Positions 391 through 17,567 of a stretch of DNA of 24,915 bases are shown here, one piece after another. The notes beneath the pieces are model-generated. The model was not told where the DNA came from and ran no database searches. It worked only from the letters and a program-made list of their open reading frames with translations. The first letter of the stretch is position 1, and every line of letters starts with the position of its first letter. The translations under genes and the position numbers were made by a program. Source of the stretch: a virus; IMG/VR virus record IMGVR_UViG_3300008267_000482, positions 1 through 24,915 of that record. One strand, 5' to 3'.

Positions 391-1539
391 ATGGCGATAT
401 TTACTGGAATGGATGGCTTCTTTGGGAAGGGTTCGACAGGAACCATTCCTCAGTATGTTCCTACACCTAAGGTTATTGTAGGACACGTACTTGAGGTGTG
501 TCTTGATGCAAACTCACCATTATACAAAGGCACCGATGAAAACATTGGAGCAATTCGCTTTCGAGATATATTTGGACCACCAACAGTAAACATTGCGAAG
601 GAAGACGGAACACTAGCATATCCAGCAGATCGCACTAACTTCAAACTACCACTACCAGGTGAGCAGGTTATTATATACACAGCATATACAGATAGAGTAA
701 CACCAACAAACAATCTTGCTCCAGGTTATTTTTATGCAAGCGTTATCACTAATACAGCAAACGTAACTAGCAATTCGTCTCCATTCGCTGGAATCTCACC
801 AACACTACTCAAACCAGGATTAAAGCAAGCTACATATGCTCAAGTTGAGAAGCGCTTTGATAAGCGTATTCAAAATTTAGAAATCTTTAAAGATGCATCT
901 AGCAACTTTAAGCCGGTTATACATAAGCAACTGAAACCATTTGAAGGAGATTATATCATTCAAGGACGTTACGGAAACTCGATTAGATTTGGAGGAACAC
1001 CAACAGATAGAAATGCCGATGCAGGTCCTATTTGGGGATCAAACCGACGAGGTAAGCCTGGGGATTCTATTATTGTAATGAGGTTGAGTAACGAAACAAT
1101 TAAGGCAAGTCAAGTTAAAAACAATCTCTATGACATAGAGGATATTAACGAGGATGCTGCTTCAATATATATGACCACTACTCAAGAGGTACCTATGAAA
1201 TTGGCTGTTCCAGATAAAGGACAGAGAGAGCATCCATTGGCGTCTTGGGCATACACTTATGGAATTTCGTCACCAAACATACTACCTAGTGAAACGCATA
1301 TGTTTGACGGAGAAGCTGCAAGAGAGGGAGCAGATAAGAAGTCGGAGAAGATTGTTACTGATCCAAAGAACTTTGAAACCAATCAAACTTCAGCACAAAA
1401 TAATCCAACAGCCACAGGTAATCCAACTGATCCAAACGCAACTAATACTGCAGGTGGAGGAACGTTTACAATCCATGGTGAGCCGGTTGGAACTCCAGAT
1501 CAAGGACAGCAAGAGACAAATTCAACAAACCAAAACTAA
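391..1539 (+). CDS. gp5-like baseplate hub/spike protein, OB-fold part
   Basis: A 382-residue protein that looks like the OB-fold half of a T4 gp5-type baseplate protein. The N-terminal part (about 25-125) is beta-rich (GHVLEVCLDANSPLYKG, then LPLPGEQVIIYTAY), as expected of the OB fold found in gp5/gpV/VgrG spike proteins. Residues 191-202 hold QGRYGNSIRFGG, and 253-266 read NEDAASIYMTTTQE. From memory, both motifs occur in gp5-like proteins of marine T4-like phages, where a beta-helical spike section follows them in the same chain. Here the chain ends in a Thr/Asn/Gln-rich low-complexity tail (about 310-382), and the spike section appears in separate downstream genes. No lysozyme domain is visible. 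Likely role: base of the central spike, joining the hub to the spike paralogs. The OB/gp5 assignment is fairly firm; the split architecture is inference. Confidence 0.7.
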   Translation: MAIFTGMDGFFGKGSTGTIPQYVPTPKVIVGHVLEVCLDANSPLYKGTDENIGAIRFRDIFGPPTVNIAKEDGTLAYPADRTNFKLPLPGEQVIIYTAYTDRVTPTNNLAPGYFYASVITNTANVTSNSSPFAGISPTLLKPGLKQATYAQVEKRFDKRIQNLEIFKDASSNFKPVIHKQLKPFEGDYIIQGRYGNSIRFGGTPTDRNADAGPIWGSNRRGKPGDSIIVMRLSNETIKASQVKNNLYDIEDINEDAASIYMTTTQEVPMKLAVPDKGQREHPLASWAYTYGISSPNILPSETHMFDGEAAREGADKKSEKIVTDPKNFETNQTSAQNNPTATGNPTDPNATNTAGGGTFTIHGEPVGTPDQGQQETNSTNQN

Positions 1540-1541
1540 TC

Positions 1542-2735
1542 ATGGCACGCGCATCGTCAGCTATAGTAAAAGAAATGTTACCACTCATAGATTCAACCTA
1601 TGCAGTTCGAGTAAAGTCTATTCTATTAAATTCTATATCACTATACAAAGATAATACTAAAAAAGAATGGTTTGAGAGTGCAATTGGCGTGACTGGTGCT
1701 AAGTCAGAAGTAGAGACTAAAGCTGCGCTTTTAGCTGATTATACCGCTGCATCAATAGATGCACTTACACGTTTTGATATTTTTGAAACCATCATGTGGC
1801 CGAAGATATCAGCATATGCACCTGGATGGGCAGATCATCCTAGCGACGTAGAACCACCACAAGGATCGAGTATGAAGGGGGTGGTATATTCTACGGTGTT
1901 TAAGGGTAATCCTAGTACTGATTTTTCCACAGACTTTCATAAGCTATTTGGAGAAAAGGTTGATCTTACATTACCACAGACCGGTTGGCTGAACCAAACA
2001 ACGCCTCTAGCTACAGACTTTAAAAAACTAAAAGAACTTAGCTTAGAATTGGGTAGAAACTTTAGTTACGATTTAAGTGGCTATGAAAACATTAACAATA
2101 AAAAAGCGTTATTAAATGATTTATTTAGTAATGAGAATGCTGTTAAGTTGTGGTTTGTAGAAACGGTTTTATTAAACCAATCATTTGCCAATCCGTTTAG
2201 TGCAATGGGAATTGATCCATACTTTGGATACTTGCTGATGTTTATGGGATGGAAAGGTGGTACAAAGATTTTTGCTGACATTAGAGGTAAGATTGTGTAT
2301 CAAAATAGTGAGCAAATAAAAAGTTTAAAACATATTGTAAATGGGGCTATAAACGGACAATGGCTTAGTGGAGTTGATACAGACAATCCAACCTCTGGTA
2401 CACCTACTAATGTAAACTGGGCTGTAGAAGTTGCTCCATCTGACGGAAAAGAAAACTCTGTACGCGCATACATACCAAATTACGCTACTAAATTTCTAGA
2501 ATGTTATGCAGCTTGGTTGCAGGGTATTAAAACAGAAAAACCGGAGTACTATAAAGATTGGTATGATAAGTTGATTACTGACAGATTTAGTCTTATTAAT
2601 ATGTTAGTGCTTGTTAATGAGTTGGTAAACATACCAGGAACTGCAAACCGATTTGTTTACAATCCAGTAGCCGGACAATACTTAGCAGCCCTCTCAGAGA
2701 AGTATAAAACTTTTGAAATAACAATAGGTGATTAA
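1542..2735 (+). CDS. Unrecognised hub-region protein, 397 aa
   Basis: A 397-residue protein of mixed but mainly helical character, rich in aromatic residues. Distinct segments are FETIMWPKISAYAPGW (about 80-96), a hydrophobic FGYLLMFMGWKGG stretch (about 226-240), and a helical C-terminal part with EYYKDWYDKLITDRFSL (about 330-348). There is no signal peptide or convincing transmembrane helix. I do not recognise the family. It starts two bases after the gp5-like gene and its stop overlaps the next start (TAATG), so it is probably translationally coupled to the spike genes. Position suggests a hub or tail-tip component, perhaps filling the role of T4 gp27 or another adaptor, but no sequence motif proves this. 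Confidence 0.8.
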   Translation: MARASSAIVKEMLPLIDSTYAVRVKSILLNSISLYKDNTKKEWFESAIGVTGAKSEVETKAALLADYTAASIDALTRFDIFETIMWPKISAYAPGWADHPSDVEPPQGSSMKGVVYSTVFKGNPSTDFSTDFHKLFGEKVDLTLPQTGWLNQTTPLATDFKKLKELSLELGRNFSYDLSGYENINNKKALLNDLFSNENAVKLWFVETVLLNQSFANPFSAMGIDPYFGYLLMFMGWKGGTKIFADIRGKIVYQNSEQIKSLKHIVNGAINGQWLSGVDTDNPTSGTPTNVNWAVEVAPSDGKENSVRAYIPNYATKFLECYAAWLQGIKTEKPEYYKDWYDKLITDRFSLINMLVLVNELVNIPGTANRFVYNPVAGQYLAALSEKYKTFEITIGD

Positions 2736-3757
2736 TGCCAAAGTTTTCTTACGATACAATTCTTAGCAGTGTTGAAGACAGCTGTGCTCTGACTCAACCC
2801 CTAGTGAGTCCTAGGCCTGAGGTTGTTCCGCAAACTCGACCATCACGAACTACAACTCAACAAGAAGTAGAAACTCCACCCAGCGCATCTGCAAGCGGAT
2901 CAGCTATACAGGTCGACAATGTGCAAGTTAATGGTGGTCAATTAACTGGTACTGTCCAGATTGATTTAAAGCCATTTCAACAAGCTCTCGAATCTTTAGA
3001 CTTTAGTGCAACAAAGGATGGAGATATTGCATCAACAATAACATCAACCAAAGTAAAACCGTCACTAGATGCACAAATGGGTGTCGATGCGTTGGGTAAC
3101 AGTGTGTACACAAACACATCTGCTGGTAGTGTTATGATAAACAGTGATCGAGTTATTATAAACTCCAAGCAGCAGTTGTCAATGTTATTAGGACAAAAGG
3201 GTGTTGCAATTGCGTCACCAGGAAAGGTCAACATAGATGCTGGCGAGAGTATTACTCTAGCATCTTATGGAGATGCAGATGGTGGATTATTTCTTGGTGT
3301 GCCAAATAAAGGCGTTCAATATACTACAACTAAGCAAACACAAATAGGTGCATCGAAGGGATCGCCAACGTCTGATCAACCCTATGAGCCACTGGTGTTG
3401 GGTATAAAATTAGCAAACCTCTTACAAGACTTTTTATTTGTATTAAAGAGTGCTGAAGGAGTGGACGCGCTGAGTCCAGTTAAATTTCAACCAGACGTTC
3501 AAGCGGAGTTTGCTTTGCTAGCAAACCGTATACCGGAGATGTTAAGTAACTACGCTTATATAGATGGGATGTCGCACGGAAGTGTGGATATGGATCAGTT
3601 AGCTGCCATCGAATCTGCAAGAGCTGAAACACCAAACTATGCTCCACCAGCAAGCTTGACAGGATCTATCCAAGGTCAGTTTACAATAGCAAATACTGCA
3701 GGTGGTTTAGATTTTGGTGGTCCAGGACTTGACCCTATTAAAAATCTTAAGTGGTGA
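2735..3757 (+). CDS. Spike paralog A, core module
   Basis: A 340-residue protein, the first of three tandem paralogs. After a short N-terminal motif shared with the others (KFSYDTIL) and a Pro/Thr/Ser-rich insert (about 20-60), it has the common core at about 68-310. The core includes LTGTVQIDLKPFQQAL, a beta-repeat zone with SVMINSDRVIINSKQQ (132-147) and GVAIASPGKVNIDAGESITL (156-175), then a helical zone with PLVLGIKLANLLQDFLFVLK and ANRIPEML. The beta-repeat zone resembles the C-terminal spike repeats of gp5/VgrG-like proteins, which trimerise into a needle. Unlike its two paralogs it stops soon after the core, at TGA 3755-3757. The expected C-terminal enzyme domain lies in the +1 frame immediately downstream, so the real product may be a longer fusion. 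The start overlaps the upstream stop (TAATG). Confidence 0.8.
   Translation: MPKFSYDTILSSVEDSCALTQPLVSPRPEVVPQTRPSRTTTQQEVETPPSASASGSAIQVDNVQVNGGQLTGTVQIDLKPFQQALESLDFSATKDGDIASTITSTKVKPSLDAQMGVDALGNSVYTNTSAGSVMINSDRVIINSKQQLSMLLGQKGVAIASPGKVNIDAGESITLASYGDADGGLFLGVPNKGVQYTTTKQTQIGASKGSPTSDQPYEPLVLGIKLANLLQDFLFVLKSAEGVDALSPVKFQPDVQAEFALLANRIPEMLSNYAYIDGMSHGSVDMDQLAAIESARAETPNYAPPASLTGSIQGQFTIANTAGGLDFGGPGLDPIKNLKW
3711..3757 (+). other. Frame-break window joining spike A to muramidase
   Basis: In this 47-base overlap both the spike-A frame and the muramidase frame are open; the muramidase frame has a TAG at 3708-3710. A +1 change of frame anywhere here fuses the two products. Three candidate sites are visible: the TTTT run at 3712-3715, the AAAAA run at 3740-3744 (one A fewer gives DPIKILSGES), and CTT-A at 3746-3749. 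At the last site a CUU-decoding tRNA could slip forward onto UUA (giving DPIKNLSGES), as in the CUU-A site of the yeast Ty1 element. Programmed shift, true mutation and an indel in the assembled sequence cannot be told apart from this window. Confidence 0.55.
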
Positions 3758-4367
3758 GAGTTTTGGTGGCGACTACGATGTATATAATTTTAGCACTCCA
3801 TCAAAGTCTAGTGGTGGTGGGGGTATTAGAACTTCAAATGCAACAGGTGGTGCCAAGGCGTTTTATTCGACTAAAGCTGTTAAGTTGACAGACAAGACAG
3901 TATCACAAATTATTGCACTACAAAACGGACCGGAAGATTTATTTGCTGTTGGAAAGTATCAAACAATACCAGGTACCTTAAAATCAGCCGCTACTGCATT
4001 AGGTTTACTAAACAGTTTGTTTGATCAAGCTACTCAGGAAAAAATTGGAGATCGATTAATGTTAACATCAAGACCGCGTTTAGGAAGTTATTTAAAAGGA
4101 ACCAACGAAGGTACGGTTACAGACTTAGAAAATGCGGTGCAGGATCTTGGACAAGAGTTTGCATCCTTTCCAATCATAACAAAAGGTGGTACAAAATATG
4201 GTGACGTAACCACGGGAACAGGAAACAAAGCGTACTATGGAGGTTCCGGACCTAATCCAGATTCTGTGAAAAAGACAGTAGGAGATGTAGTTAAGATGCT
4301 AATAAAATCAAGAATCCAGTTTTCATCAAAACAACCATCATTCATCCCAACATACTATACTCCGTAG
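3714..4367 (+). CDS. Muramidase / lytic transglycosylase domain (lambda R-like)
   Basis: The 217-residue reading frame encodes a peptidoglycan-cleaving domain that resembles the lambda R/COG4678 muramidase group. SGESFGGDYDVYN (13-25) holds the probable catalytic glutamate, Glu15. FAVGKYQTIPGTLKSAATALGL (78-98) matches the GRYQ...LGL block, FDQATQEKIGDRL (103-115) follows it, and LENAVQDLGQEFASFP (138-153) matches the helix ending in WASLP. It would cut the glycan strands during tail penetration. The only in-frame starts before the catalytic region are TTG 3714, GTG 3717 and TTG 3729, all inside spike gene A and none with a ribosome site. Because both downstream paralogs carry their enzyme fused to the spike core, a frameshifted spike-muramidase fusion is more likely than independent translation. 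Its stop overlaps the next start (TAGTG). Confidence 0.7.
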   Translation: MVVQDLTLLKILSGESFGGDYDVYNFSTPSKSSGGGGIRTSNATGGAKAFYSTKAVKLTDKTVSQIIALQNGPEDLFAVGKYQTIPGTLKSAATALGLLNSLFDQATQEKIGDRLMLTSRPRLGSYLKGTNEGTVTDLENAVQDLGQEFASFPIITKGGTKYGDVTTGTGNKAYYGGSGPNPDSVKKTVGDVVKMLIKSRIQFSSKQPSFIPTYYTP

Positions 4368-5848
4368 TGGCGCAAACAATAACATATCAACAATTATATG
4401 ATAAGCTACAAGCTGATGGAGCATTTAATGCAGCTAGCAGCTTAACTTTCAATCTTACTGGTACTGTTACTATTGATTTAAAGCAGTACCAAGACGCTGT
4501 ATTAAAACTCGACTTTAAAGAATTTACAGATTCAACATTCACTAGTGAAGTTACAGCTACAGCAGCAGATCCATCGGTAGAAGATATCATGCATATTACT
4601 AAGCGTAAGGTGAACAAATACATTCCGGATGCAGATGGAGGTAGTATACTAATGAATGGTGATCGAATTGTAATAAATGCTAAGTCGGATTACGCAATGC
4701 TCTTCGGTCAGAAGGGTGTAGCTATTGCATCACCAAGCAGAGTTAACTTTGATGCGGGCGATTCTATTACACTATTTGGTCATGCTAATCAAGGGGTGTT
4801 TATTGGATTACCAAACAAAGGATTACAAATACCAAAAACGCTAGCTACACAAACAGCTTTAGGTGTAACCAAAGGAGACCCAACACCAGACTACTCGTAT
4901 GAGCCAGTCGTATTAGGCGTAAAGCTTGCTAATCTCTTAGAAGACATCTTATTTGTATTACAAAATGCCGATATGGCTTCAAGTTTATCTGAAGCAAAAT
5001 GGCAACCATCGACAGTAGCTGAGTTTGCCTTATTAGCAAATCGCATACCGGAAATCTTAAGCACCTACGCATACGTTGATGGAATATCTCACGAATCTGT
5101 TGATCAAGATAGACTACAAAAACTAATAGAGCAACAAAAGAAAGCAGCTCCATATGTTCCACCAACTAGCTTAACAGCTGTAGTCGAGGGTACAATCGCG
5201 CCACCTATGACTGGAACATCACCATACTCACCTCCCAATCCAAGTGCAAGCCCAATTGGACAAACCACAACAGTTCCTGGTGGTGGTGGATTTGCATTAA
5301 ATGAAAGTAGTAGGAATTTTATTAATAAGTACTGTGGAGGTGTTGCTCCGGTGACTCTGTATGCTGACGGTACTGCTGTGGTAATTCGAACAGAGAATGG
5401 GGGTGCAAGATCAATCTTAAAACCAAATCCATCTTATCAGGCGGCATTAGCAACTATAAAAATGCCTTTCAAAGGAAAGCCAGGTGGACAAGGTTTAGCA
5501 GTGCATCCAGACTTTGCTGCAAAACTAGCTCCAGCCTTTGCTGAAATAACAGCAAATGGAGGAGGAGAGTATATAGAATCGTTTGCAGGTTCATACTACC
5601 CAAGAAACGTTACTGGTGGATCAAGGCTATCACACCACTCATATGGATTTGCATTTGATATCAACACAACTAGAGGAGGTACATTTGGTTATGGCGTTCA
5701 CTGGAATCTTGAAAAACAAACGGTTGGTGGTAGACCTTGGACAGATTGGGAAAGAACCTTTTACGAGAAGGTAGCATCCGTAATGGTTAAGCATGGAATA
5801 ACGTGGCTATATGGAGGTGACCCAATGCACTTTTCAATTTACGAATAA
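4367..5848 (+). CDS. Spike paralog B fused to M15 peptidase
   Basis: A 493-residue fusion. Residues 1-270 form the shared spike core, with SILMNGDRIVINAKSDYAM at 93-111 and GVAIASPSRVNFDAGDSITL at 117-136. A Pro/Thr/Gly linker spans about 275-308. The C-terminal domain (about 310-493) is an M15/VanY-like peptidase: Ser422-x-His424-x-x-Gly427-x-Ala429-x-Asp431 fits the SxHxxGxAxD zinc motif, and GGDPMHFS (483-490) supplies His488 and a likely catalytic acid, Asp485. Such enzymes cleave peptide cross-bridges or stems (D,D-carboxypeptidase or L-Ala-D-Glu peptidase); exact specificity cannot be read here. The GTG start is backed by alignment of MAQTITYQQLYDKL with MAKYTYNDIYESL of paralog C, and it overlaps the muramidase stop. 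Likely acts at the spike tip during cell-wall penetration. Confidence 0.85.
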   Translation: MAQTITYQQLYDKLQADGAFNAASSLTFNLTGTVTIDLKQYQDAVLKLDFKEFTDSTFTSEVTATAADPSVEDIMHITKRKVNKYIPDADGGSILMNGDRIVINAKSDYAMLFGQKGVAIASPSRVNFDAGDSITLFGHANQGVFIGLPNKGLQIPKTLATQTALGVTKGDPTPDYSYEPVVLGVKLANLLEDILFVLQNADMASSLSEAKWQPSTVAEFALLANRIPEILSTYAYVDGISHESVDQDRLQKLIEQQKKAAPYVPPTSLTAVVEGTIAPPMTGTSPYSPPNPSASPIGQTTTVPGGGGFALNESSRNFINKYCGGVAPVTLYADGTAVVIRTENGGARSILKPNPSYQAALATIKMPFKGKPGGQGLAVHPDFAAKLAPAFAEITANGGGEYIESFAGSYYPRNVTGGSRLSHHSYGFAFDINTTRGGTFGYGVHWNLEKQTVGGRPWTDWERTFYEKVASVMVKHGITWLYGGDPMHFSIYE

Positions 5849-7209
5849 TGGCAAAGTATACCTACAACGACATATACGAATCACTAAAAGCATCAGGAGC
5901 CTTTGATGCAGGATCCACTACATTCTCATTTACTGCCACTTTTGAAATTGATCTAAAACCGTATCAAGATGCCGTAATGGCACTAGATTTTAAAGACTTT
6001 AAAGACGATCAGCTTGTAAGTGAGATTAATGCCACCGCAGCATCGCCAAGTCTCGATCAGCTAATTGGTGTTAATACAAACGGAGAAAACTCTCACATAC
6101 CAAATGCTAGTGACGCTAGTATTATGATAGCAGCAGATCGTGTAATCATTAATGCAAAGAAAGATTTTGGTATGTTATTTGGCCGAAAAGGAGTTGCATT
6201 AGCATCACCAAGCAGAGTCAATATCGATGCAGGACAGAGCATAACTTTGTATGGACATGAAAGTGTATTTCTTGGCATACCAAACAAAGGTAATGCAGTA
6301 AAAGAAAAGCAACCAAACCTAGGAACAACCAAAGGACACCCAACTCCTGATCAAGAATATGATCCACTCGTTCTAGGTTATAAGCTTGCAAACCTTTTGG
6401 AAGATATCCTATTTGTATTAAAAAGCGCAGAGCTAGTGTCAGGTATTAGTCCAGTTAAATTTCAACCAAGTACACAAGCAGAGTTTGGTTTATTAGCAAA
6501 CCGCATACCAGAGATATTGAGCAACTATGCATTTGTAGACGGCATAAGTTATGAACAAATTGACAAAGCACAACTAGAAACGCTGAAAGCTCAACAAAAG
6601 AAAGTTAAAAAGTTTGAGCCACCAAAAGAGCTTGTTGGAACTCTAACGGGAACTGGTACTGGTGTACCAGGGTCAACAACTACGCCTGCAGGATTTACTC
6701 CAGTTCCTAGTAGTGTAGCACCAACATCGGATCAATACATATTAGTAGAAGGTGGTCATGGAGGTTACTGGCCAAACGGTAATCCATACTCAAATACACC
6801 AGATCCTAAATTAGGTGCTGGAGATGGTGACAACCTGCACTCGTTTACGTCTGATATTAGAGCTCATAAGGGAAGAACAATGGACATTCAAATAGAAGCA
6901 GGACTAAAAGAGTTTAAACAAAAGTTCAATAAACCGGCTGATATAGTGGGAATGACAGTGCAGATGAATGAGAAGGCATCTACAAGGCAGGTTGTGTGGA
7001 AAGCGCTAATCCAAGAAAGTAAGGATGGTATTCATAGAGGCAGCTTTACCGCAAGAGGTTCAGCTAAGGATCCTGCAGGATCACTAGCAAGTACAACTGA
7101 TCAAATGGATTCTTGGCTAGCAAACAAAATCGATGCTAAAAAAATATATTTATTTGAGCATAGCATAGGCAGCTTGCTTATTACCCAATTATTTGCTTTA
7201 TATAAATAA
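5848..7209 (+). CDS. Spike paralog C with unidentified C-terminal domain
   Basis: A 453-residue protein. Residues 1-265 form the spike core, closest in layout to paralog B (KYTYNDIYESLKASGAF; DRVIINAKKDFGMLFGRKG at 97-115; SPSRVNIDAGQSITL at 120-134). A Thr/Pro/Gly linker (about 266-295) leads to a C-terminal domain of about 160 residues that starts YILVEGGHGGYWPNG (297-311). The GHGG motif with surrounding hydrophobic strand and Gly recalls the first zinc ligand of N-acetylmuramoyl-L-alanine amidases (Amidase_3). The usual second Glu and the SIHAN-type block are not evident, so the match is weak. The fusion pattern of the neighbouring paralogs makes a third wall- or surface-acting domain plausible. 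The start overlaps the previous stop (TAATG). Spike core confident; C-terminal function unknown. Confidence 0.75.
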   Translation: MAKYTYNDIYESLKASGAFDAGSTTFSFTATFEIDLKPYQDAVMALDFKDFKDDQLVSEINATAASPSLDQLIGVNTNGENSHIPNASDASIMIAADRVIINAKKDFGMLFGRKGVALASPSRVNIDAGQSITLYGHESVFLGIPNKGNAVKEKQPNLGTTKGHPTPDQEYDPLVLGYKLANLLEDILFVLKSAELVSGISPVKFQPSTQAEFGLLANRIPEILSNYAFVDGISYEQIDKAQLETLKAQQKKVKKFEPPKELVGTLTGTGTGVPGSTTTPAGFTPVPSSVAPTSDQYILVEGGHGGYWPNGNPYSNTPDPKLGAGDGDNLHSFTSDIRAHKGRTMDIQIEAGLKEFKQKFNKPADIVGMTVQMNEKASTRQVVWKALIQESKDGIHRGSFTARGSAKDPAGSLASTTDQMDSWLANKIDAKKIYLFEHSIGSLLITQLFALYK

Positions 7210-7214
7210 ACAAC

Positions 7215-10200
7215 ATGCCAATTAATTTTGAATTAAACTTTGTACAACCATTACTGCTAGATATCCAAAATGGCAACATTCCGGATGCAGATACTTTTTC
7301 AGCAAAAATAGCAGAATACTACGAACGTACAATACTCCAAGGCATGCCACAAGGTATTCCACCTTCACTACCAGCACCGGCATTACAAGGAGCACCTGGA
7401 GTTATAAGTACTGGGGTAGACAACTATATTAGACCTGCAAGCTTAAACAGCTCCTCTAAGATGTATCGAAACATAGCAAGGTATTACGTTAACCGAGAAT
7501 TGATACAGGGAGAGCAGGATGCCGAGTCAGCTATAGACACACTCGAAGCTGTTATACGTAAACAAAGCTTTAACCTAAAGCGTATACAAGTTTTTGTAGA
7601 TCAAGCAAAAAAAATAAGCGGTCAGTTGGCAGAAATTCCAACTAAAGCTCAAAACCTAAAATTACTAGCACAAGACATTATTGCGGATTATAAAAAATTA
7701 CTAGAAGCGGTTAGAGCAGAAATTACTTCACCAGACTTTGCTGATAGGGTTCAGCAAGCAGCAAACGAGACGGCTCCAAACCTATTTGCAGAAGAGTTGG
7801 CAATCATTGATACAATTACAAACTTAAAATTTAACAATCCACAGAACATTACCCAAGCAGTACAAGCGATAGCTAATTACAATAGAAGGTTAACAAGAAT
7901 ATCAAACAGTACTAGGGAACAACAAAAGGCCCTGGTTACAGCTAGAATAGCTACAACATTAAAACGTATTCAAGAAGCGGCTTCTGCGTTTGCAGAACCA
8001 ACAGCATTTGGCCCCTTCTTAGCTAGACTTACTAGTGATAAAGCTGAAGTGCAGTCGAGAATCGATCAAGCAAGAGTGACTTATCTAGAAATTAAACAAA
8101 TGGAAGAAGTGCTGCGACCTGCACTCATTGAATTGGAGCGTAAAATAATTGAAGAGAAGAAAAACCTAGAAACGATTGTTAAGAATAAAATAAAAGACAT
8201 AAAAGAACGCATTGCAGAAAAGCAGGCAGCTAATGCCGAAAGACGCTTACAAAAGCAGGCACTACAACCTCCTAAGATTCCAAAAAAGTCACCTCTTATT
8301 GATTTGTTTGAACAAAAGAAAGAGGATGTGAAAACGTTTCGAAAAAACAACGAAGAGAATGTCAAGATTCTACGAAGAAAACAAAAAATAGTAAGCAAGG
8401 TTATTGCTGAGAGCTCTGCTCTAATTAATGCTGCCTACGCGTTACAAGATACAATAATCAACACCGAGGTACCGCTCATAACCGCCAAGTTTAACCAGGC
8501 TACCGGCAGTCTCCAAAATACGTTTGGTGAAGGAGGACAGCTTGACCAAGCAATCACACAAGCTAGTGCATCGATTGCTGCCAATGAAGGTAGAGTTGTA
8601 GGAAGCATAGTAACACCGGTAGATCCAGGCTACCAACTAAAGAAATTTGCTACAACCTCAGAAGAAAAGTATATTAGAAGGTATTTTAAAGAGCAGGGGT
8701 TGACTTCTGTTGCCGAGCCATTTGTGTTAATAGCAACTCAAACAAAAGTATCTTTTCAAGACTTTAGGGTATTTGTAGAGCAAACGGATAAAAAGTATGA
8801 TCAGTATGCAGAGGTTGTTTTATCTTTCCGTCCGCGTTTAAAAAGGATTATTGACGACATTAAACGATTAGACGATGAAAAGATATTCATAGAGCCAGTT
8901 GATATGGATTCGCAATCTCGTAACGAACGATATCGAGCTCGATTAGAAAGGGTGAGAGATAGAGAGCTACGTGAACTAGAGCCAAGACCAAAGTTTACTA
9001 TTATTTCAATCTTAAAAGAGATAGCAGAGTTTGTACAGTTTATTTACGGTTGGGTGGTAAAGATTGTCAAGAAGATAAAAAAATACATCAAGAAGCAAGT
9101 AGACAATGCTTTACGAATTAAGAAGCAGATTGAAGAGGCTGTGATCGCATCCCTACCTATTCCTACTGCCAGTGCAGATATCAAAACAAGAGCTGAAGCG
9201 GCAAAAGAAAAAAAAGAAACCATTAAGCAATATAAGCAGAAGGTGCTGAATTATCGTAAGAAAGGAGAGGCTATCGCCTTAGTTGGACAAGCAGCAGGCC
9301 CGCTTCTTAATAATATAGCTGCTGGAAAACTTAGAGCATCTGAAAATGAAAAATGGATCAAGCAAATTGGTCTAGGAAAATTTAACTATAATACAGTGGG
9401 GTTAGAGACGGCGAGTCCACAATACGTTAAGGAGGAGGCTGAAAAGAGAGCATTTGAGGATAACGTAAATAGTTTACGCATTATTGAAACCTACGTTGAT
9501 CTAATTATTACAGTATATAAGGATATTGAAGACTCAAAGGGTAAAGCTAAAGCTATTGTAAATACTACAACAAATTCAGTCTCACAATTTGGATTGGGAT
9601 TTATTGAAGATATAAAGCAAGCAGCAATCCAAACAGCTAACAATAAGATAGGGAAGCAACCTGATGGTACAGTTGGAGTAGTAGCCGATCTAGCTAGTAA
9701 TCAAATAATCTCAATCATTGTTAGTATGTTTGAAGGAGAGCCTAAATTTGATTCCATTTTAAAAAAACTAAAAAAAATCCGAACTGAATTAAAAGGCAAA
9801 GTATTAACCTCGGTCTTAAAGTCAGTAGACTTCACGCAGTTGTTTATTAGTGTAGAACAAAAGTATTTATTTGGAACCTCAGCAGCAATTAAAAAGATTG
9901 TAGGCCGAATAGAGCCTACAGAGACTATTGAGGAGGAGAAGGAAACTAATGAACAAAATGTAATTAGAAAAACTGACGCAGAAATAAGAAAGAGAGCAAA
10001 GCAGCAAGCAGAAGCAGCAAAGGCAAGATTACGGAAGCTCAACATAAAGGGATTCAACTTTTACGATGAGATGATAAAGTTAGATAGACTTATTAACAAA
10101 CGCCAAGGATCATTCTTGGCTGCTTTGATTGATCGATTACTGTATGCAATAAATGATTTTGAACAACGTATACGTAAGCAAGTGAAAGAGTGGTTAAAGA

Positions 10201-10562
10201 AAACCAAACTCGAAATAAAGGAAAAAATTCAGAAAGCAGCTCAAGAGCATAGTGATAAGTTGGATAAAATAAGAACAAAGCTTGCGAATGCAGATGCCAT
10301 AGTTCAGACAGCAGTACTAGGCTTGAGTGCTAGAGCATTCTGGACAGGCGTAACTTGGCAGAACACAGTAGGAACAACCTTTCAAGTAATAAGCATTGGA
10401 CAATTCCCACGACTGAAGAGTAACGGATTAACAGATGGTGGCGAGAGTGTTGTTCGAGAGATTGCAAGTAACTTTGAAAAACAGCTTAAAGGTATGCAAG
10501 GCATTTACATACCAAATCCATCACTCGGAATCCCTCTTCAAACTTTTAAAGGATACGCATAA
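7215..10562 (+). CDS. Large coiled-coil-rich virion structural protein
   Basis: An 1115-residue protein dominated by long charged helices (Lys/Glu/Arg/Gln/Ala-rich). The densest coiled-coil stretches lie near 100-190, 295-400, 630-680 and 900-1035. An extended N-terminal segment with PxxP-type prolines (about 40-65) precedes them. Residues 594-628 form a hydrophobic-then-basic helix (VQFIYGWVVKIVKKIKKYI) that might contact membrane. The last 75 residues (1041-1115) are different: compact, aromatic- and Gly/Pro-containing (AFWTGVTWQNTVG...SLGIPLQTFKGYA), and probably a folded docking domain. I do not recognise a named family. It lies between the spike genes and the wedge genes. By length and helicity it could be a tape measure or a hub-associated rod, but T4-like phages normally encode the tape measure elsewhere, so this is tentative. 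The start follows AACAAC with no Shine-Dalgarno sequence. Confidence 0.8.
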   Translation: MPINFELNFVQPLLLDIQNGNIPDADTFSAKIAEYYERTILQGMPQGIPPSLPAPALQGAPGVISTGVDNYIRPASLNSSSKMYRNIARYYVNRELIQGEQDAESAIDTLEAVIRKQSFNLKRIQVFVDQAKKISGQLAEIPTKAQNLKLLAQDIIADYKKLLEAVRAEITSPDFADRVQQAANETAPNLFAEELAIIDTITNLKFNNPQNITQAVQAIANYNRRLTRISNSTREQQKALVTARIATTLKRIQEAASAFAEPTAFGPFLARLTSDKAEVQSRIDQARVTYLEIKQMEEVLRPALIELERKIIEEKKNLETIVKNKIKDIKERIAEKQAANAERRLQKQALQPPKIPKKSPLIDLFEQKKEDVKTFRKNNEENVKILRRKQKIVSKVIAESSALINAAYALQDTIINTEVPLITAKFNQATGSLQNTFGEGGQLDQAITQASASIAANEGRVVGSIVTPVDPGYQLKKFATTSEEKYIRRYFKEQGLTSVAEPFVLIATQTKVSFQDFRVFVEQTDKKYDQYAEVVLSFRPRLKRIIDDIKRLDDEKIFIEPVDMDSQSRNERYRARLERVRDRELRELEPRPKFTIISILKEIAEFVQFIYGWVVKIVKKIKKYIKKQVDNALRIKKQIEEAVIASLPIPTASADIKTRAEAAKEKKETIKQYKQKVLNYRKKGEAIALVGQAAGPLLNNIAAGKLRASENEKWIKQIGLGKFNYNTVGLETASPQYVKEEAEKRAFEDNVNSLRIIETYVDLIITVYKDIEDSKGKAKAIVNTTTNSVSQFGLGFIEDIKQAAIQTANNKIGKQPDGTVGVVADLASNQIISIIVSMFEGEPKFDSILKKLKKIRTELKGKVLTSVLKSVDFTQLFISVEQKYLFGTSAAIKKIVGRIEPTETIEEEKETNEQNVIRKTDAEIRKRAKQQAEAAKARLRKLNIKGFNFYDEMIKLDRLINKRQGSFLAALIDRLLYAINDFEQRIRKQVKEWLKKTKLEIKEKIQKAAQEHSDKLDKIRTKLANADAIVQTAVLGLSARAFWTGVTWQNTVGTTFQVISIGQFPRLKSNGLTDGGESVVREIASNFEKQLKGMQGIYIPNPSLGIPLQTFKGYA

Positions 10563-11546: not shown

Positions 11547-11972
11547 ATGGCAATAGAGATAAAAAAACCGGTACTAGATTCAGAGCTTAATGTAGCTATT
11601 GGAATTGACTTGCCTACGAGTTCAAAGCAAGGATCTCTATTTCAATTAAACTATCTTACTATTGATCAGATGGTAGCAAATGCCAAAAACTTACTACTAA
11701 CTAATCATGGTGAACGTCCAATGCTGCCAAACTTTGGTTGCAATTTGCGCAGAGTATTATTCGAAAATGCAACAGAGGATCTCGTTGAAGTGATCCAAGA
11801 TACTATTCAAGAAAACTTTCAAATATGGCTTCCGTACATATTTATTAATGAGCTAGTGGTTGATGCTCCTGAATTTTCTCCAAACAGAATTAACATAAAC
11901 ATGAGTATCAGTCTAGTTGGAAACAAATTCGATACACGATCCATTCAACTTGAACTAGATACAACTCAATAA
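11547..11972 (+). CDS. 25: Baseplate wedge protein, GPW/gp25 family
   Basis: A 141-residue protein, close to T4 gp25 (132 residues). The family signature is clear at residues 46-73: AKNLLLTNHGERPML followed by PNFGCNLRRVLFE, ending in a long helix (DLVEVIQDTIQENFQIWLPYI) and a C-terminal beta section (INMSISLV). In contractile tails gp25/GPW sits in the inner baseplate core bundle, linking the wedge to the hub and helping to start sheath assembly. Despite the old name it is a structural protein and has no established lysozyme activity. It is immediately followed by gp6, a gene pair conserved in contractile-tail phages and related injection systems. The start is three bases after the upstream stop, with no Shine-Dalgarno sequence. 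Confidence 0.93.
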   Translation: MAIEIKKPVLDSELNVAIGIDLPTSSKQGSLFQLNYLTIDQMVANAKNLLLTNHGERPMLPNFGCNLRRVLFENATEDLVEVIQDTIQENFQIWLPYIFINELVVDAPEFSPNRININMSISLVGNKFDTRSIQLELDTTQ

Positions 11973-11981
11973 TAGATTAGT

Positions 11982-13907
11982 ATGTATACACCGCCATCGA
12001 AAGATATAAAGTATTTAGGTAGAGATTTTGATAGTATCAAACAAGGTCTAATAGACTTTGTTAAAACCTACTATCCAAATACATACAACGACTTCAATGA
12101 AGCATCACCAGGAATGATGTTCTTGGAGCTTGTGGCGTATGTCGGAGATACACTCAACTACTATATTGACTCCCAACTAAAAGAGTCTTTATTATTACAA
12201 GCAACAGAAAAAAAGAACGTGTTAGCTATTGCAGCTGCAATGGGATACAAGCCAAAGATTAGTGTACCATCTAACGTGACTTTGGACGTATATCAACTCA
12301 TGCCTGCCACAGGAAGTGGCGTAAATGCTGTACCAGACACACGATATACTTTGCGAATTAATCCTGGTATGCAGGTTAGGTCAACTGTAACTACCAACAT
12401 ACCAACCGCAGCTGAGATCGTTCCAGTAAACTTTTACGTTCAAGACATTGTAGATTTTGCAATTGATACTGCAGACGATCCGGTTGAATACTCAGTGTAC
12501 ACAATTGACGCAAACGGTAGTCCAGAGTACTACTTAGCTAAAAAGCAAGTAAACGCGGTATCAGCAGCTCCATACACTACAACCGTTGACGTTGGTGCAC
12601 CAACAAAGTTCTTTAAATTCAAAATACCCTTCGACACTACTCCAGCTGATTTTATTGGAATTGACACTATTGTAGATTCAGACGGAAACACGTGGTATGA
12701 AGTGCCTTACTTAGCTCAAGACACTATCTTTGAGCAAGTAACCAATACCGCTTTTAACGATCCAGATGCAGCAGTCTACAGTGATGAGATTCCTTATTTA
12801 CTAAAACTAAAAAAAGTTCCAAGAAGATTTGTTACACGCATATTGGATGACGGAATTGAAGTTCAATTTGGTGCTGGAATAAGTACTTCGGAGGATGAAG
12901 AGTTGTTACCAACTCCTGATAACATTGGCGTTAATCTTCCAACAGGAAAGATCGATATGGATCCTTCTATAGATCCAAACGCACCAGGGATAACAAAGGC
13001 ATATGGTGTTGCTCCATCAAACACAACGCTTACAGTAACCTATTTGAGAGGTGGTGGTGTTACATCAAATGTAGCTAGCAATGTAATTACAACAATCACT
13101 GGAGTTGATACAAGCATTGTTAATTTTCCAACAAACACGCCAGTACTCAACACGACAATTTTAAACTCTTTGGCAGTAAACAATCCACAAGCTGCTACTG
13201 GAGGACGTGCTGAAGAAACCTTAGATGAGATTAGACAAAACGCTCTCAAGCAACTGTCATCACAAAACAGAGCTGTAACAAGAGAGGATTACATTATTAG
13301 AGCGTTAGCTATGCCACCTGAGTTTGGTAGCGTAACTAAGGTGTTTATTACACCAGATGAGCAGAATAATTTACTTACTGGAGATAGCGGAGACATAGTT
13401 GCTAATCCGTTAGCAATGAATATGTATATTTTAGGATACAACGAAGACAGACAAATTACAACTGTAAACCGTGCTGTTAAAGAAAATCTCAAAACATACA
13501 TATCACACTATCGTATGCTCACAGATAGCATTAACATTCGAGATGCATACACAGTTAACATTCAAGTTAACTTCGATATTATACCACTGAGAGATCGCAA
13601 TGCTAACGAAGTGTTGCTGACATGCGTGAATGCCATGAAAGATTATTTCAACATTGATAGATGGCAGATCAATCAACCAATAATGCTCTCAGACATATAC
13701 AACATGCTACTAACTCAACCAGGAGTTCAAACGGTAACTAAGATTGATATTTCAAACTTAAACGATTCATCTCTAGGATACAGCAATATCTTCTACGGCA
13801 TAAAACAAGCAACACGCAACGGAATTATATATCCAAGTATGGATCCTATGATTTTTGAAGTTAAGTTTCCAGATAATGATATAAAAGGACGTATAGCAAC
13901 ATACTAA
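11982..13907 (+). CDS. 6: Baseplate wedge subunit gp6
   Basis: A 641-residue protein, close to T4 gp6 (660 residues). The N-terminal region is characteristic: YLGRDFDSIKQGLIDFVKTY, then NEASPGMMFLELVAYVGD, LNYYIDSQLKESLLLQAT and AIAAAMGYKP (residues 10-95). A central beta-rich part follows. The C-terminal half has the helix-rich J-like section (AEETLDEIRQNALKQLSSQ, VTREDYIIRAL) and ends with DPMIFEVKFPDNDIKGRI. gp6 forms the continuous iris-like ring around the baseplate and drives its change from the compact to the star form. It directly follows gp25 and ends one base before the next start. Identification is firm on overall pattern and context. Confidence 0.93.
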   Translation: MYTPPSKDIKYLGRDFDSIKQGLIDFVKTYYPNTYNDFNEASPGMMFLELVAYVGDTLNYYIDSQLKESLLLQATEKKNVLAIAAAMGYKPKISVPSNVTLDVYQLMPATGSGVNAVPDTRYTLRINPGMQVRSTVTTNIPTAAEIVPVNFYVQDIVDFAIDTADDPVEYSVYTIDANGSPEYYLAKKQVNAVSAAPYTTTVDVGAPTKFFKFKIPFDTTPADFIGIDTIVDSDGNTWYEVPYLAQDTIFEQVTNTAFNDPDAAVYSDEIPYLLKLKKVPRRFVTRILDDGIEVQFGAGISTSEDEELLPTPDNIGVNLPTGKIDMDPSIDPNAPGITKAYGVAPSNTTLTVTYLRGGGVTSNVASNVITTITGVDTSIVNFPTNTPVLNTTILNSLAVNNPQAATGGRAEETLDEIRQNALKQLSSQNRAVTREDYIIRALAMPPEFGSVTKVFITPDEQNNLLTGDSGDIVANPLAMNMYILGYNEDRQITTVNRAVKENLKTYISHYRMLTDSINIRDAYTVNIQVNFDIIPLRDRNANEVLLTCVNAMKDYFNIDRWQINQPIMLSDIYNMLLTQPGVQTVTKIDISNLNDSSLGYSNIFYGIKQATRNGIIYPSMDPMIFEVKFPDNDIKGRIATY

Positions 13908-15035: not shown

Positions 15036-17567
15036 ATGGAATACGGTGAAAGATATACACTGTATGCAGCTTCTGGACAGTTCACTAAACTAGACGGAAC
15101 ACCATACATAGGTCCTTATCATATAATGGAGCAAGGACTTCCTATGACAGAGGCTGAACACACTCCAAATTCCGTTGTATTAATTCCTGTTCAACAGACA
15201 CAGACAAGACAGACCTCATCTATTTCAGCTCCAGATCCTAATACAACACTAGACGAGAACGCAACAGTTTACGATCTAATTCCAGTAATCATAAACAAAC
15301 CACCAGTAGTGGTTAAAGCAGTAGCTGAAGCCTCAACTCCACCAATTAAACCCTTTGCAGCAGCCGACGCTTCTGGTGATTTTATGTATCAGTTTGATGA
15401 TGGAACAGTACGCATACATCAAGCCACTTCTATAGTGCTGCGAGCAGAAGCAGTTCAACCAGATGTCCTTAATGTAGAAAATGGAATACTAGAATACAAG
15501 CCTAGTGATGCAGAATTAGTATACTCCTGGACGTTTGATGGTGAATCTATTAGTGGATTAGACTCTGATGTACTTACTGGTGCACAAAGGAACGTTAGAG
15601 GTAATGAAATTATTCTCACAAGAGTGCAGCCAAGATATGCAGGCACATATACGTGTACTGTCAGTAACGATATTGGAAGTACTGATGCAGGAAGCGTTAC
15701 ATTAGAGATTTACAACTCAAATGTAGATTCATTTTTTTATCAAAATCTACTCGTTAACGGCGACGGATCTGACGATACCTTAGGATGGGAGAGTATTAAT
15801 GACGGCTTCGTATCTTCACAGCTGAGTAGAATTAATGCTCAAACACAAAAGAGTATTGTGGTTAATCCGTTTAATGAGCCATTTGCATGGACTGCAGAGA
15901 TGTTTAATCCGAGACCATATCAACTAAATTACGGAAGTCTCAGACCAACAAATAATCCGGATGCAGTCAATAATATGGCTAACACAAACCTAAAGTTGAG
16001 TACATACTTTACTAGAGTACCATACACATACACCATAAACAACAACATTCCAGTTATTAGAGCATATCAAGATATTGACTTATCTGGAGAGCTTGAGGCA
16101 CACATAAAGGGTGCAATATATGGAGTAGAGGGTTTAAGAGGAGTGTTGTGTGGATATATTGGAAACGCAATCTTTAACTATGAGCTTACGGATGAGTTTA
16201 TTACAATATCAGATCGCAACGACCCGTCTTCCTATTATTTAGGAGCACCCAGAGTTAGTGTAGAAAACTTCAGTAAGGCCGGACCAGGATTTGTAGCAGA
16301 AAAAGTCACTATTACTCTTCAGGAGTTTGCTAACAACCAACCTCTAGAGAGTCGAATCCTTATGGATAATATGACTGAAACCAAAGGCATACTAACATTA
16401 ATGGATCCCTGGACTAAGCGCTTATCAAAATACAAAAACCGCGTTTACTATCAAGGAGACAAAGGATACACTGTTCCAGACAAACCAAGCTTAGGAGATA
16501 GCCGAGATGCACACCTATTTGTTGCAGATGAACTAATGCCAGACTACAGAGAGAGGTATGCGTTTGGTCAATATGCTGAGTTTAATAAGCAAGTTATTGA
16601 ACGCCTAGATCCTCGCACGAATAAGATTAGAATAACTATAAACATAGAAGCACCAGAACTTGGTGTTATGTTTAGAGAGCGTGGAGGTAATGAGTTGACA
16701 TCTGTATCCGATAAGCTAAAGCTGTGGGAAACTTTACCATGGATGTCTACGTGGCCTTCAAGATCGTTTGGAGTTAGAAACAACGATGGCTTCCCAAACG
16801 AAGATAGTGCATACAATCAGTTGAAAAACGATCCTAATATAGAATCTACTGATCTTTTTCAAAAGATACCACAAATAGGTGAGTCCAGAGCGTTAATTTC
16901 GGGTCTCACATTCGCTTTAGTACCAATTTACAAAGGTCGAGTAGGAATAACAAACGATGATGTTAATTCTATCTTTTTACAACTAGAGGAATACACGGAG
17001 GATGTGCCATCTCCAATTCAAACCGATTTGCCACCATATAATGCACTACAAGAAGTAGAAGAAAAACAAGCACAAGAAGCGCAAGCTGCTATACCACTGC
17101 CTGTTCCTGCAAAATACAAACCATCTGCTGCTCAACGAGTTGGTGAAAACGATACAACTATAGACTTTAGTGTAGTAACAGAAGGCCCACCACAACCAGT
17201 TAAAAACGCATTTACAGTAACGCAGGGATTGGTAGAGGCAGGTCGAGATGTGACCCTTAGTGTAACAATTCAAACTTATCACAATGATAGAAACAACTCA
17301 GAGCTTAAGTTTGGAGTTTACGAGTATAGCGGAAAAGACGAGTTAATAGGTCGAATTAGCTCTTGGGTATATCCTGAAGGAGTTAACTCAAATAACAAAG
17401 TAGAGAAAAAACAAAACTATACCACTAACTTTACAATCACAATTCAATCGGAAAAGCTCACAGTTGGTAACTACTACAAGATTATAGGTAATGCAGATGT
17501 AAATAGAGATGGACACAACCATACAGTACTACCCAATACGTCCTTTATGCTAGCAAACTTTGCATAA
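15036..17567 (+). CDS. Large Ig-domain tail/baseplate protein, paralog 1
   Basis: An 843-residue protein. An I-set-like Ig domain spans about 110-228: core Trp165 (YSWTFDG) and F-strand YAGTYTCTVSNDIGS with Cys207. The usual B-strand cysteine is absent, so no canonical disulfide forms. Right after it comes NLLVNGDGSDDTLGW (237-251), which recurs in the next gene and opens a beta-rich region of several hundred residues. A Glu/Ala/Gln-rich helical hinge (about 665-690) precedes a final beta-sandwich (about 705-843) ending HTVLPNTSFMLANFA. Phage Ig domains are known as surface-exposed accessory domains on virions, often thought to bind glycans weakly. Likely a peripheral baseplate or adsorption protein. 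No family name can be given for the main body. Confidence 0.78.
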   Translation: MEYGERYTLYAASGQFTKLDGTPYIGPYHIMEQGLPMTEAEHTPNSVVLIPVQQTQTRQTSSISAPDPNTTLDENATVYDLIPVIINKPPVVVKAVAEASTPPIKPFAAADASGDFMYQFDDGTVRIHQATSIVLRAEAVQPDVLNVENGILEYKPSDAELVYSWTFDGESISGLDSDVLTGAQRNVRGNEIILTRVQPRYAGTYTCTVSNDIGSTDAGSVTLEIYNSNVDSFFYQNLLVNGDGSDDTLGWESINDGFVSSQLSRINAQTQKSIVVNPFNEPFAWTAEMFNPRPYQLNYGSLRPTNNPDAVNNMANTNLKLSTYFTRVPYTYTINNNIPVIRAYQDIDLSGELEAHIKGAIYGVEGLRGVLCGYIGNAIFNYELTDEFITISDRNDPSSYYLGAPRVSVENFSKAGPGFVAEKVTITLQEFANNQPLESRILMDNMTETKGILTLMDPWTKRLSKYKNRVYYQGDKGYTVPDKPSLGDSRDAHLFVADELMPDYRERYAFGQYAEFNKQVIERLDPRTNKIRITINIEAPELGVMFRERGGNELTSVSDKLKLWETLPWMSTWPSRSFGVRNNDGFPNEDSAYNQLKNDPNIESTDLFQKIPQIGESRALISGLTFALVPIYKGRVGITNDDVNSIFLQLEEYTEDVPSPIQTDLPPYNALQEVEEKQAQEAQAAIPLPVPAKYKPSAAQRVGENDTTIDFSVVTEGPPQPVKNAFTVTQGLVEAGRDVTLSVTIQTYHNDRNNSELKFGVYEYSGKDELIGRISSWVYPEGVNSNNKVEKKQNYTTNFTITIQSEKLTVGNYYKIIGNADVNRDGHNHTVLPNTSFMLANFA

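Follow-up and report, generated by a model that had tools for sequence, protein, structure and literature searches.

A candidate contractile-tail spike encoded in separate parts, with three needle paralogs followed by different payload domains

The viral DNA analysed here (IMG/VR record IMGVR_UViG_3300008267_000482, positions 1 to 24,915; hereafter the window, 24,915 nucleotides in full) contains three adjacent paralogous genes, A (2735-3757, its payload lying in an overlapping open reading frame (ORF) at 3714-4367), B (4367-5848) and C (5848-7209), whose products have a common core and unrelated C-terminal payload domains. Judging from these sequences and their relatives, the core is very probably the distal needle of a contractile-tail central spike that is encoded in parts, and our leading interpretation, to which we give slightly better than an even chance, is a heterotrimer with one copy each of A, B and C. 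The split-spike unit extends beyond the three paralogs at 2735-7209, as the genes at 391-1539 and 1542-2735 also belong to it. All window features placed below between 44 and 13907 lie on the plus strand.

Needle core, spike base and payloads

In BLASTP comparisons, the cores of A and B are 50.6% identical over 249 residues (E 4e-80), those of A and C 54.6% over 240 residues (E 3e-83), and those of B and C 56.4% over 264 residues (E 2e-99). With alignment scores of 623-771, against 36-40 for shuffled sequences (standard deviation about 6), they bear out the first-pass annotation, which had described a colinear core of about 250 residues in three adjacent genes and quoted core motifs that are indeed present in the sequences. 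The payload parts of B and C, by comparison, align at chance level (score 27 versus 30 for shuffles). In A, the core spans residues ~70-314 and is preceded by an N-terminal extension (DSCALTQP); it occupies 4367-5260 in B and 5848-6700 in C. The stop and start codons of consecutive genes overlap by 1 nucleotide at 2735, 4367 and 5848, which favours coupled translation.

A profile search with the core retrieved about 60 viral contigs in which it forms the C-terminal half of a protein of ~400 residues, the N-terminal half being homologous to the window gene at 391-1539. A structure model of one such fused protein, based on 45 sequences, had a modest mean predicted local distance difference test score (pLDDT) of 55; a barrel at residues ~28-110 was modelled with partial confidence. 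Its ten best Foldseek matches in the PDB were all contractile-tail spikes or baseplate spike chains, and the matches include an Anabaena contractile injection system (CIS), two VgrG structures, the antifeeding prophage (AFP), P1, A-1(L) and the R2 pyocin spike; their E-values (0.009-0.39) are weak singly and consistent as a set. In a second look (VIA), all long alignments (140-164 residues) were to spikes of VgrG, P1, the Photorhabdus virulence cassette (PVC), AFP, a Streptomyces CIS and pyocins, while unrelated matches covered the OB barrel only. No useful match came from searching PDB sequences with profiles of the muramidase, the core or the fused spike. Because of the core/OB fusions and the structural matches, we assign 391-1539 as the OB-domain base of the central spike (the N-terminal part of gp5, here a gene of its own) and the paralogs as the distal needle of the same spike. 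The spike assignment made at first pass was thus corroborated, also by the neighbouring gp25 and gp6 genes: an OB-fold base with a C-terminal needle behind it, in a baseplate cassette with gp25 and gp6 downstream, is the arrangement of the broad gp5/VgrG/gpV spike class. Strict gp5 has runs of VxGxxxxx octapeptide repeats in its C-terminal beta-helix. A search for VxGxxxxxVxG found no instance in the three paralogs, in the OB gene or in those fused relatives that were tested, and because these repeats are absent we do not file the system as gp5 in the strict sense.

The gene between base and needles (1542-2735) encodes a muramidase subunit of GH108 type, as its orthologs in loci L016 and L017 match that family (PF05838, E 2e-7 and 4e-6). 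In GH108, the catalytic residue is the Glu of the EGG(W/Y) motif. In an alignment of 28 proteins, EGGW is found in most single-needle relatives, and APGW (as in the window) or SPGW in the window clade; the motif is likewise lost in the L012 clade. The gene, which looks like a GH108-type pseudoenzyme retained between the OB and needle genes, would now probably encode a structural, inactive muramidase. Where strict gp5 has an active lysozyme between OB domain and needle, this gene is of GH108 and not GH24 type and has lost its Glu motif. The gene order OB, muramidase, needle equals the domain order of T4 gp5. The parts are divided in other ways elsewhere: glycoside hydrolase and needle are fused in one protein in L206, an OB-VanY protein precedes the core in L098, and in L153 and L159 the OB gene is followed by an M15-like gene (motif call only) and then the core. 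In L080 (1929-3758), an OB protein carries a domain that by eye looks amidase-like (IDYIFIHTTAGS), and the core sits in a separate gene, a further independent spike split.

Among the three payloads, that of B (5612-5836) alone passes a curated Pfam cut-off: it matches Peptidase_M15_4 (PF13539, E 7.2e-7, 30.1 bits against a cut-off of 25), and its zinc-ligand motifs are in place (H424-x6-D431 and D485-x-x-H488). By profile and ligands, it belongs to peptidase family M15. The payload of A (3714-4367) matches the endolysin family phrog_90 (E 1.2e-7; its homologs, among them those in L003 and L007, 1e-7 to 3e-10), and the Glu of an (S/V)ES motif is invariant in three homologs. Muramidase-like thus describes it as a phage muramidase/endolysin type and not by exact enzyme class, as there was no match in Pfam or the PDB. 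The C payload (6733-7206) belongs to a family of five, seen solely on slot C; an alignment of four homologs shows a conserved EGGHG and further invariant His, Asp and Glu residues. It had no match in Pfam, PHROGs, NCBIfam or PDB sequences, and its matches to an ORF131 protein and to hyaluronate lyases (E 0.3-0.7) were judged to be chance. The structure model of C had a mean pLDDT of 49, and we set its Foldseek list aside, save one uncharacterised phage protein at 27% identity. A reading of GHGG as an amidase motif was backed by none of these libraries. Of the divergence into muramidase, M15 and GHGG-containing domains that the first-pass annotation had read here, the M15 assignment stands, as does the muramidase in the weaker form of muramidase-like; 'GHGG' reads GHGA in relatives, and the conserved part is EGGHG. 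Its further claim that every paralog is armed with a wall-attacking domain holds for B, while here the domain of A is not in frame with its core and that of C lacks a curated match.

As sequenced, gene A ends at a stop codon at 3757 after 340 residues, and its muramidase lies in another frame. In the sister contig L003 (6376-8001), the ortholog is a single intact protein of 541 residues, and the window differs from it by a 5-nucleotide gap at the core/payload junction; homology of the payload ORF to L003 begins at about 3750, and the remainder of both A ORFs is 94% conserved. Since L003 encodes one fused protein, we rejected the view of A as a 340-residue protein next to an unrelated lysozyme gene. 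Nor do we favour a programmed frameshift, as L003 is in frame and differs by 5 nucleotides at the junction. A pattern scan for a third contig across this junction returned 0 matches. The A muramidase may be missing from this genome; alternatively, the gap may stem from assembly or from strain variation.

Triplication and payload exchange in related loci

For the comparison with relatives, 35 loci were delimited by a 114-residue gene on one side and a gene for a ~1000-residue protein on the other. OB and needle genes were present in one copy each in 23 of them; four (the window included) had one OB gene and three needles, seven had three OB genes and one needle, and one had two OB genes and one needle. 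No locus out of the 35 had both genes tripled. Exactly three needles were found in all four complete needle-tripled loci (4/4), and exactly three OB genes in all seven complete OB-tripled ones (7/7). The three-gene order proposed as a search target at first pass does recur in related phages. For the tripled needles in isolates, no close homolog was found among 50,697 phage records, and a search of genome contigs yielded one relative.

Slots A, B and C each form a clade of their own (support 100/99, 98/96 and 91/74) across three divergent lineages in a tree built from 56 needle cores; single-needle phages of the L012 type are nearest outside the slot clades, and the needles of loci with three OB genes are placed elsewhere. 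The OB tree likewise separates slots 1, 2 and 3 as clades (all 100/100), each with six or more loci. Because needle slots and OB slots each form clades, the needle and the OB gene were tripled in two separate events: the trees point to a single triplication of the needle and, in another clade, to a triplication of the OB gene in its own right, each ending at three copies. L230 may represent a third independent triplication: an approximately unbiased (AU) test on this locus rejected only the slot 2 placement (p 0.03), and neither slots 1 and 3 (0.17 and 0.30) nor its three OB proteins together (0.29).

Tandem, threefold OB-base paralogs with a single needle, all in the different clade, are seen in L018 (2851-7657) and L090 (10342-15222) as well as in L197, L208, L209, L221, L224 and L230. 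The payloads of the OB paralogs are all different and comprise GH19, GH24, M23, VanY and a YSAGCQ domain also found in crAss-like phages. In L092 (8819-11262), the sole two-copy case, the OB gene is present as a tandem pair of which one member carries a VanY domain and the other lacks it.

An all-against-all comparison of the C-terminal parts found none of 13 triples to carry one payload family twice. The muramidase of window A has a homolog on slot C in L007 (61% identity); VanY was found on a gene that we call X, on needle A, on OB1 and on OB2, Phage_lysozyme2 on needle A and OB1, and an SGNH-like domain (GDSIA, motif call only) on needle B and X, while M23, GH24 and GH19 were located on OB slots. 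On this comparison, payload domains have been swapped between slots, and the slot cores keep their order and features. All slots retain the invariant residues of single-copy needles, and the strand-rich stretch from GS to SITL has no insertion or deletion in any of them. Needle A retains its own N-terminal extension whichever payload is attached, and the OB slots of a locus carry that locus's version of the N-terminal peptide (e.g. MSSLNK in 3/3 of L230). Slot-specific residues were dropped as evidence for a heterotrimer, as the fixed differences amount to only three and are uninformative.

The complete needle-tripled loci have no gene X and a degenerate GH108 gene, and the loci with a tripled OB gene have no GH108 gene and an X without the VanY part. 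Because of these losses, the wall-attacking load appears to have shifted from single-copy genes to the three subunits. This suggests a route of origin in which the single-copy muramidase lost its catalytic motif, or vanished, where three subunits bear enzymes. Besides, gene X carries SGNH-like and DUF5675 domains in L010/L177 (879-2684), where it lies beside a needle of the slot C clade on a cut contig.

How the three needles might assemble

We propose that 391-7209 encodes one contractile-tail central spike in parts that follow the T4 gp5 domain order, with an OB base, a muramidase subunit and a tripled needle. The paralogs A, B and C, if present in the virion, would assemble 1:1:1 on three equivalent positions of the trimeric base, and a single needle would then bear one of each payload. 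Provided that the enzymes are active, A would cut glycan strands and B peptide stems at one spot while the needle enters the periplasm, and C would contribute a third domain to the needle. What leads us to prefer this heterotrimer, raised as a possibility at first pass, are the three-copy counts in two genes, the slot clades, the payload swaps, the retained docking features and the 1-nucleotide overlaps; paralogous spike subunits with different C-terminal payload domains are also a trait of VgrG-like heterotrimers. That phages have at least twice independently made obligate heterotrimer spikes out of homotrimeric ones by tripling one spike gene (the needle in the clade of the window, the OB base in the other), with one copy of each of three different wall-attacking payloads per virion and payloads exchangeable on fixed positions, is a more tentative generalisation, whose chances we put just short of even.

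Several points weigh against the one-of-each heterotrimer. Single-chain models are of low confidence (mean pLDDT 49 and 55), as would be expected when an intertwined trimer is predicted as a monomer. A is frameshifted in the window contig, and L092 is a locus with two OB genes. The loci are non-independent, and the number three rests on about two triplication events. In type VI secretion, the VgrG requirement in Aeromonas dhakensis was traced to the effectors and not to the heterotrimer itself (PMC8668125). Finally, slot clades and payload diversity would equally be expected of specialised homotrimers.

Such homotrimers, A3, B3 and C3, either stacked on the spike or at different baseplate sites and each with three copies of one payload, are the strongest competing account, though in our view an unlikely one. 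It would equally lead one to expect features peculiar to one slot, for example the N-terminal extension of A, and a second, non-spike position is compatible with the sequence. The needle and OB features retained in all slots fit three fixed, equivalent places in one trimer and are likewise compatible with specialised homotrimers; yet all slots have kept the docking features of the single-copy protein, which suggests equivalent places, and in the fused relatives the core stands directly behind a single OB ring. Homotrimers at separate sites would, moreover, leave exact three copies in two different genes unexplained.

Less probable still is random co-assembly, or a payload mix that varies from virion to virion as a form of population hedging. 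Mixed trimers are physically plausible, given cores that are 51-56% identical and in the same strand register, but random mixing gives no reason for distinct slots in fixed order through long divergence, nor for the needle-tripled clade never having fewer than three needles. We regard it as highly improbable that some of the proteins are late-released lysis enzymes (endolysins) with a common anchoring domain and not virion parts: their payload families do carry endolysin annotation in PHROGs, but the genes lie within a baseplate cassette with gp25 and gp6, and in relatives a spike OB domain and the core form one protein. Equally remote is a decaying copy in the window, with a spike on two payloads after the A frameshift or an A muramidase translated independently from a TTG codon at 3714. 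The junction gap and the separate ORF with its possible TTG start speak for it, but this is a single metagenomic contig, and the otherwise 94% match to L003 would be expected if the change were very recent or had arisen in assembly.

Locus surroundings and known systems

The 114-residue gene (44-388) directly precedes the spike cassette in all relatives and served as left anchor; at least 590 viral contigs carry a homolog directly upstream of an OB gene, phages of Flavobacterium and Microcystis included. The right anchor, always 3' of the cassette, is the gene for the ~1000-residue protein (7215-10562), which matched no family and could be a hub or another baseplate component. It is followed by the baseplate wedge genes gp25 (11547-11972; PF04965, E 1e-10, phrog_261) and gp6/J-like (11982-13907; PF04865, phrog_6), the latter 48.8% identical to that of Microcystis phage Mel-JY01. 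Further downstream, two adjacent large proteins (15036-17567 and 17585-20335) have in common an Ig-like-looking region of ~114 residues at 29% identity.

By gp6, the closest isolates are phages of Microcystis and Flavobacterium hosts. Mel-JY01 and Flavobacterium phage immuto have a homologous baseplate cassette (gp6 49% and 42% identical, respectively) in which OB domain and core are recognised, but as one single-copy protein and without triplication. In Mel-JY01, a separate gene annotated as putative chitinase lies beside the OB-core gene.

T4 gp5 is both tail lysozyme and central spike, in the order OB domain, muramidase and trimeric needle (PMC3004832). The window resembles it in the order of the parts, the position at the baseplate hub and the presence of a muramidase on the spike. 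It differs from gp5 in that each part has a gene of its own, there are three needle genes, the Glu motif is gone from the middle muramidase, the payloads follow behind the needle and the octapeptide repeats are absent. In Vibrio cholerae, a heterotrimeric complex of VgrG-1, -2 and -3 was reported as required (PMC8668125, PMC3166118). Type VI VgrG proteins, too, are spike paralogs that differ in their C-terminal effector domains and are thought to mix in one trimer; however, each VgrG gene encodes a complete spike with hub, OB and needle, and the genes lie dispersed over the genome, whereas the phage described here has a single part of its split spike in three tandem copies, with wall-directed payloads. 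The hub protein gp15 of Anabaena phage A-1(L) bears several wall-degrading domains, of glycosidase type and peptidase, on one polypeptide (PMC10966104). It is similar in being part of a phage baseplate hub with several such domains, yet there they sit on one polypeptide of a homotrimeric hub and here on three paralogous needle subunits. We found no phage with a heterotrimeric spike, needle or hub in the searchable literature, which leaves out most subscription papers.

The usual view of a phage tail spike is that of a homotrimer with a single enzyme type. The heterotrimer that we favour predicts three needle chains per virion, with A:B:C at 1:1:1. If one-of-each spikes exist, sugar strands and peptide links would be cut in a single puncture, and the spike would be a three-socket carrier of exchangeable payloads. 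Phages and type VI secretion, with its VgrG proteins, would then have arrived at a common solution.

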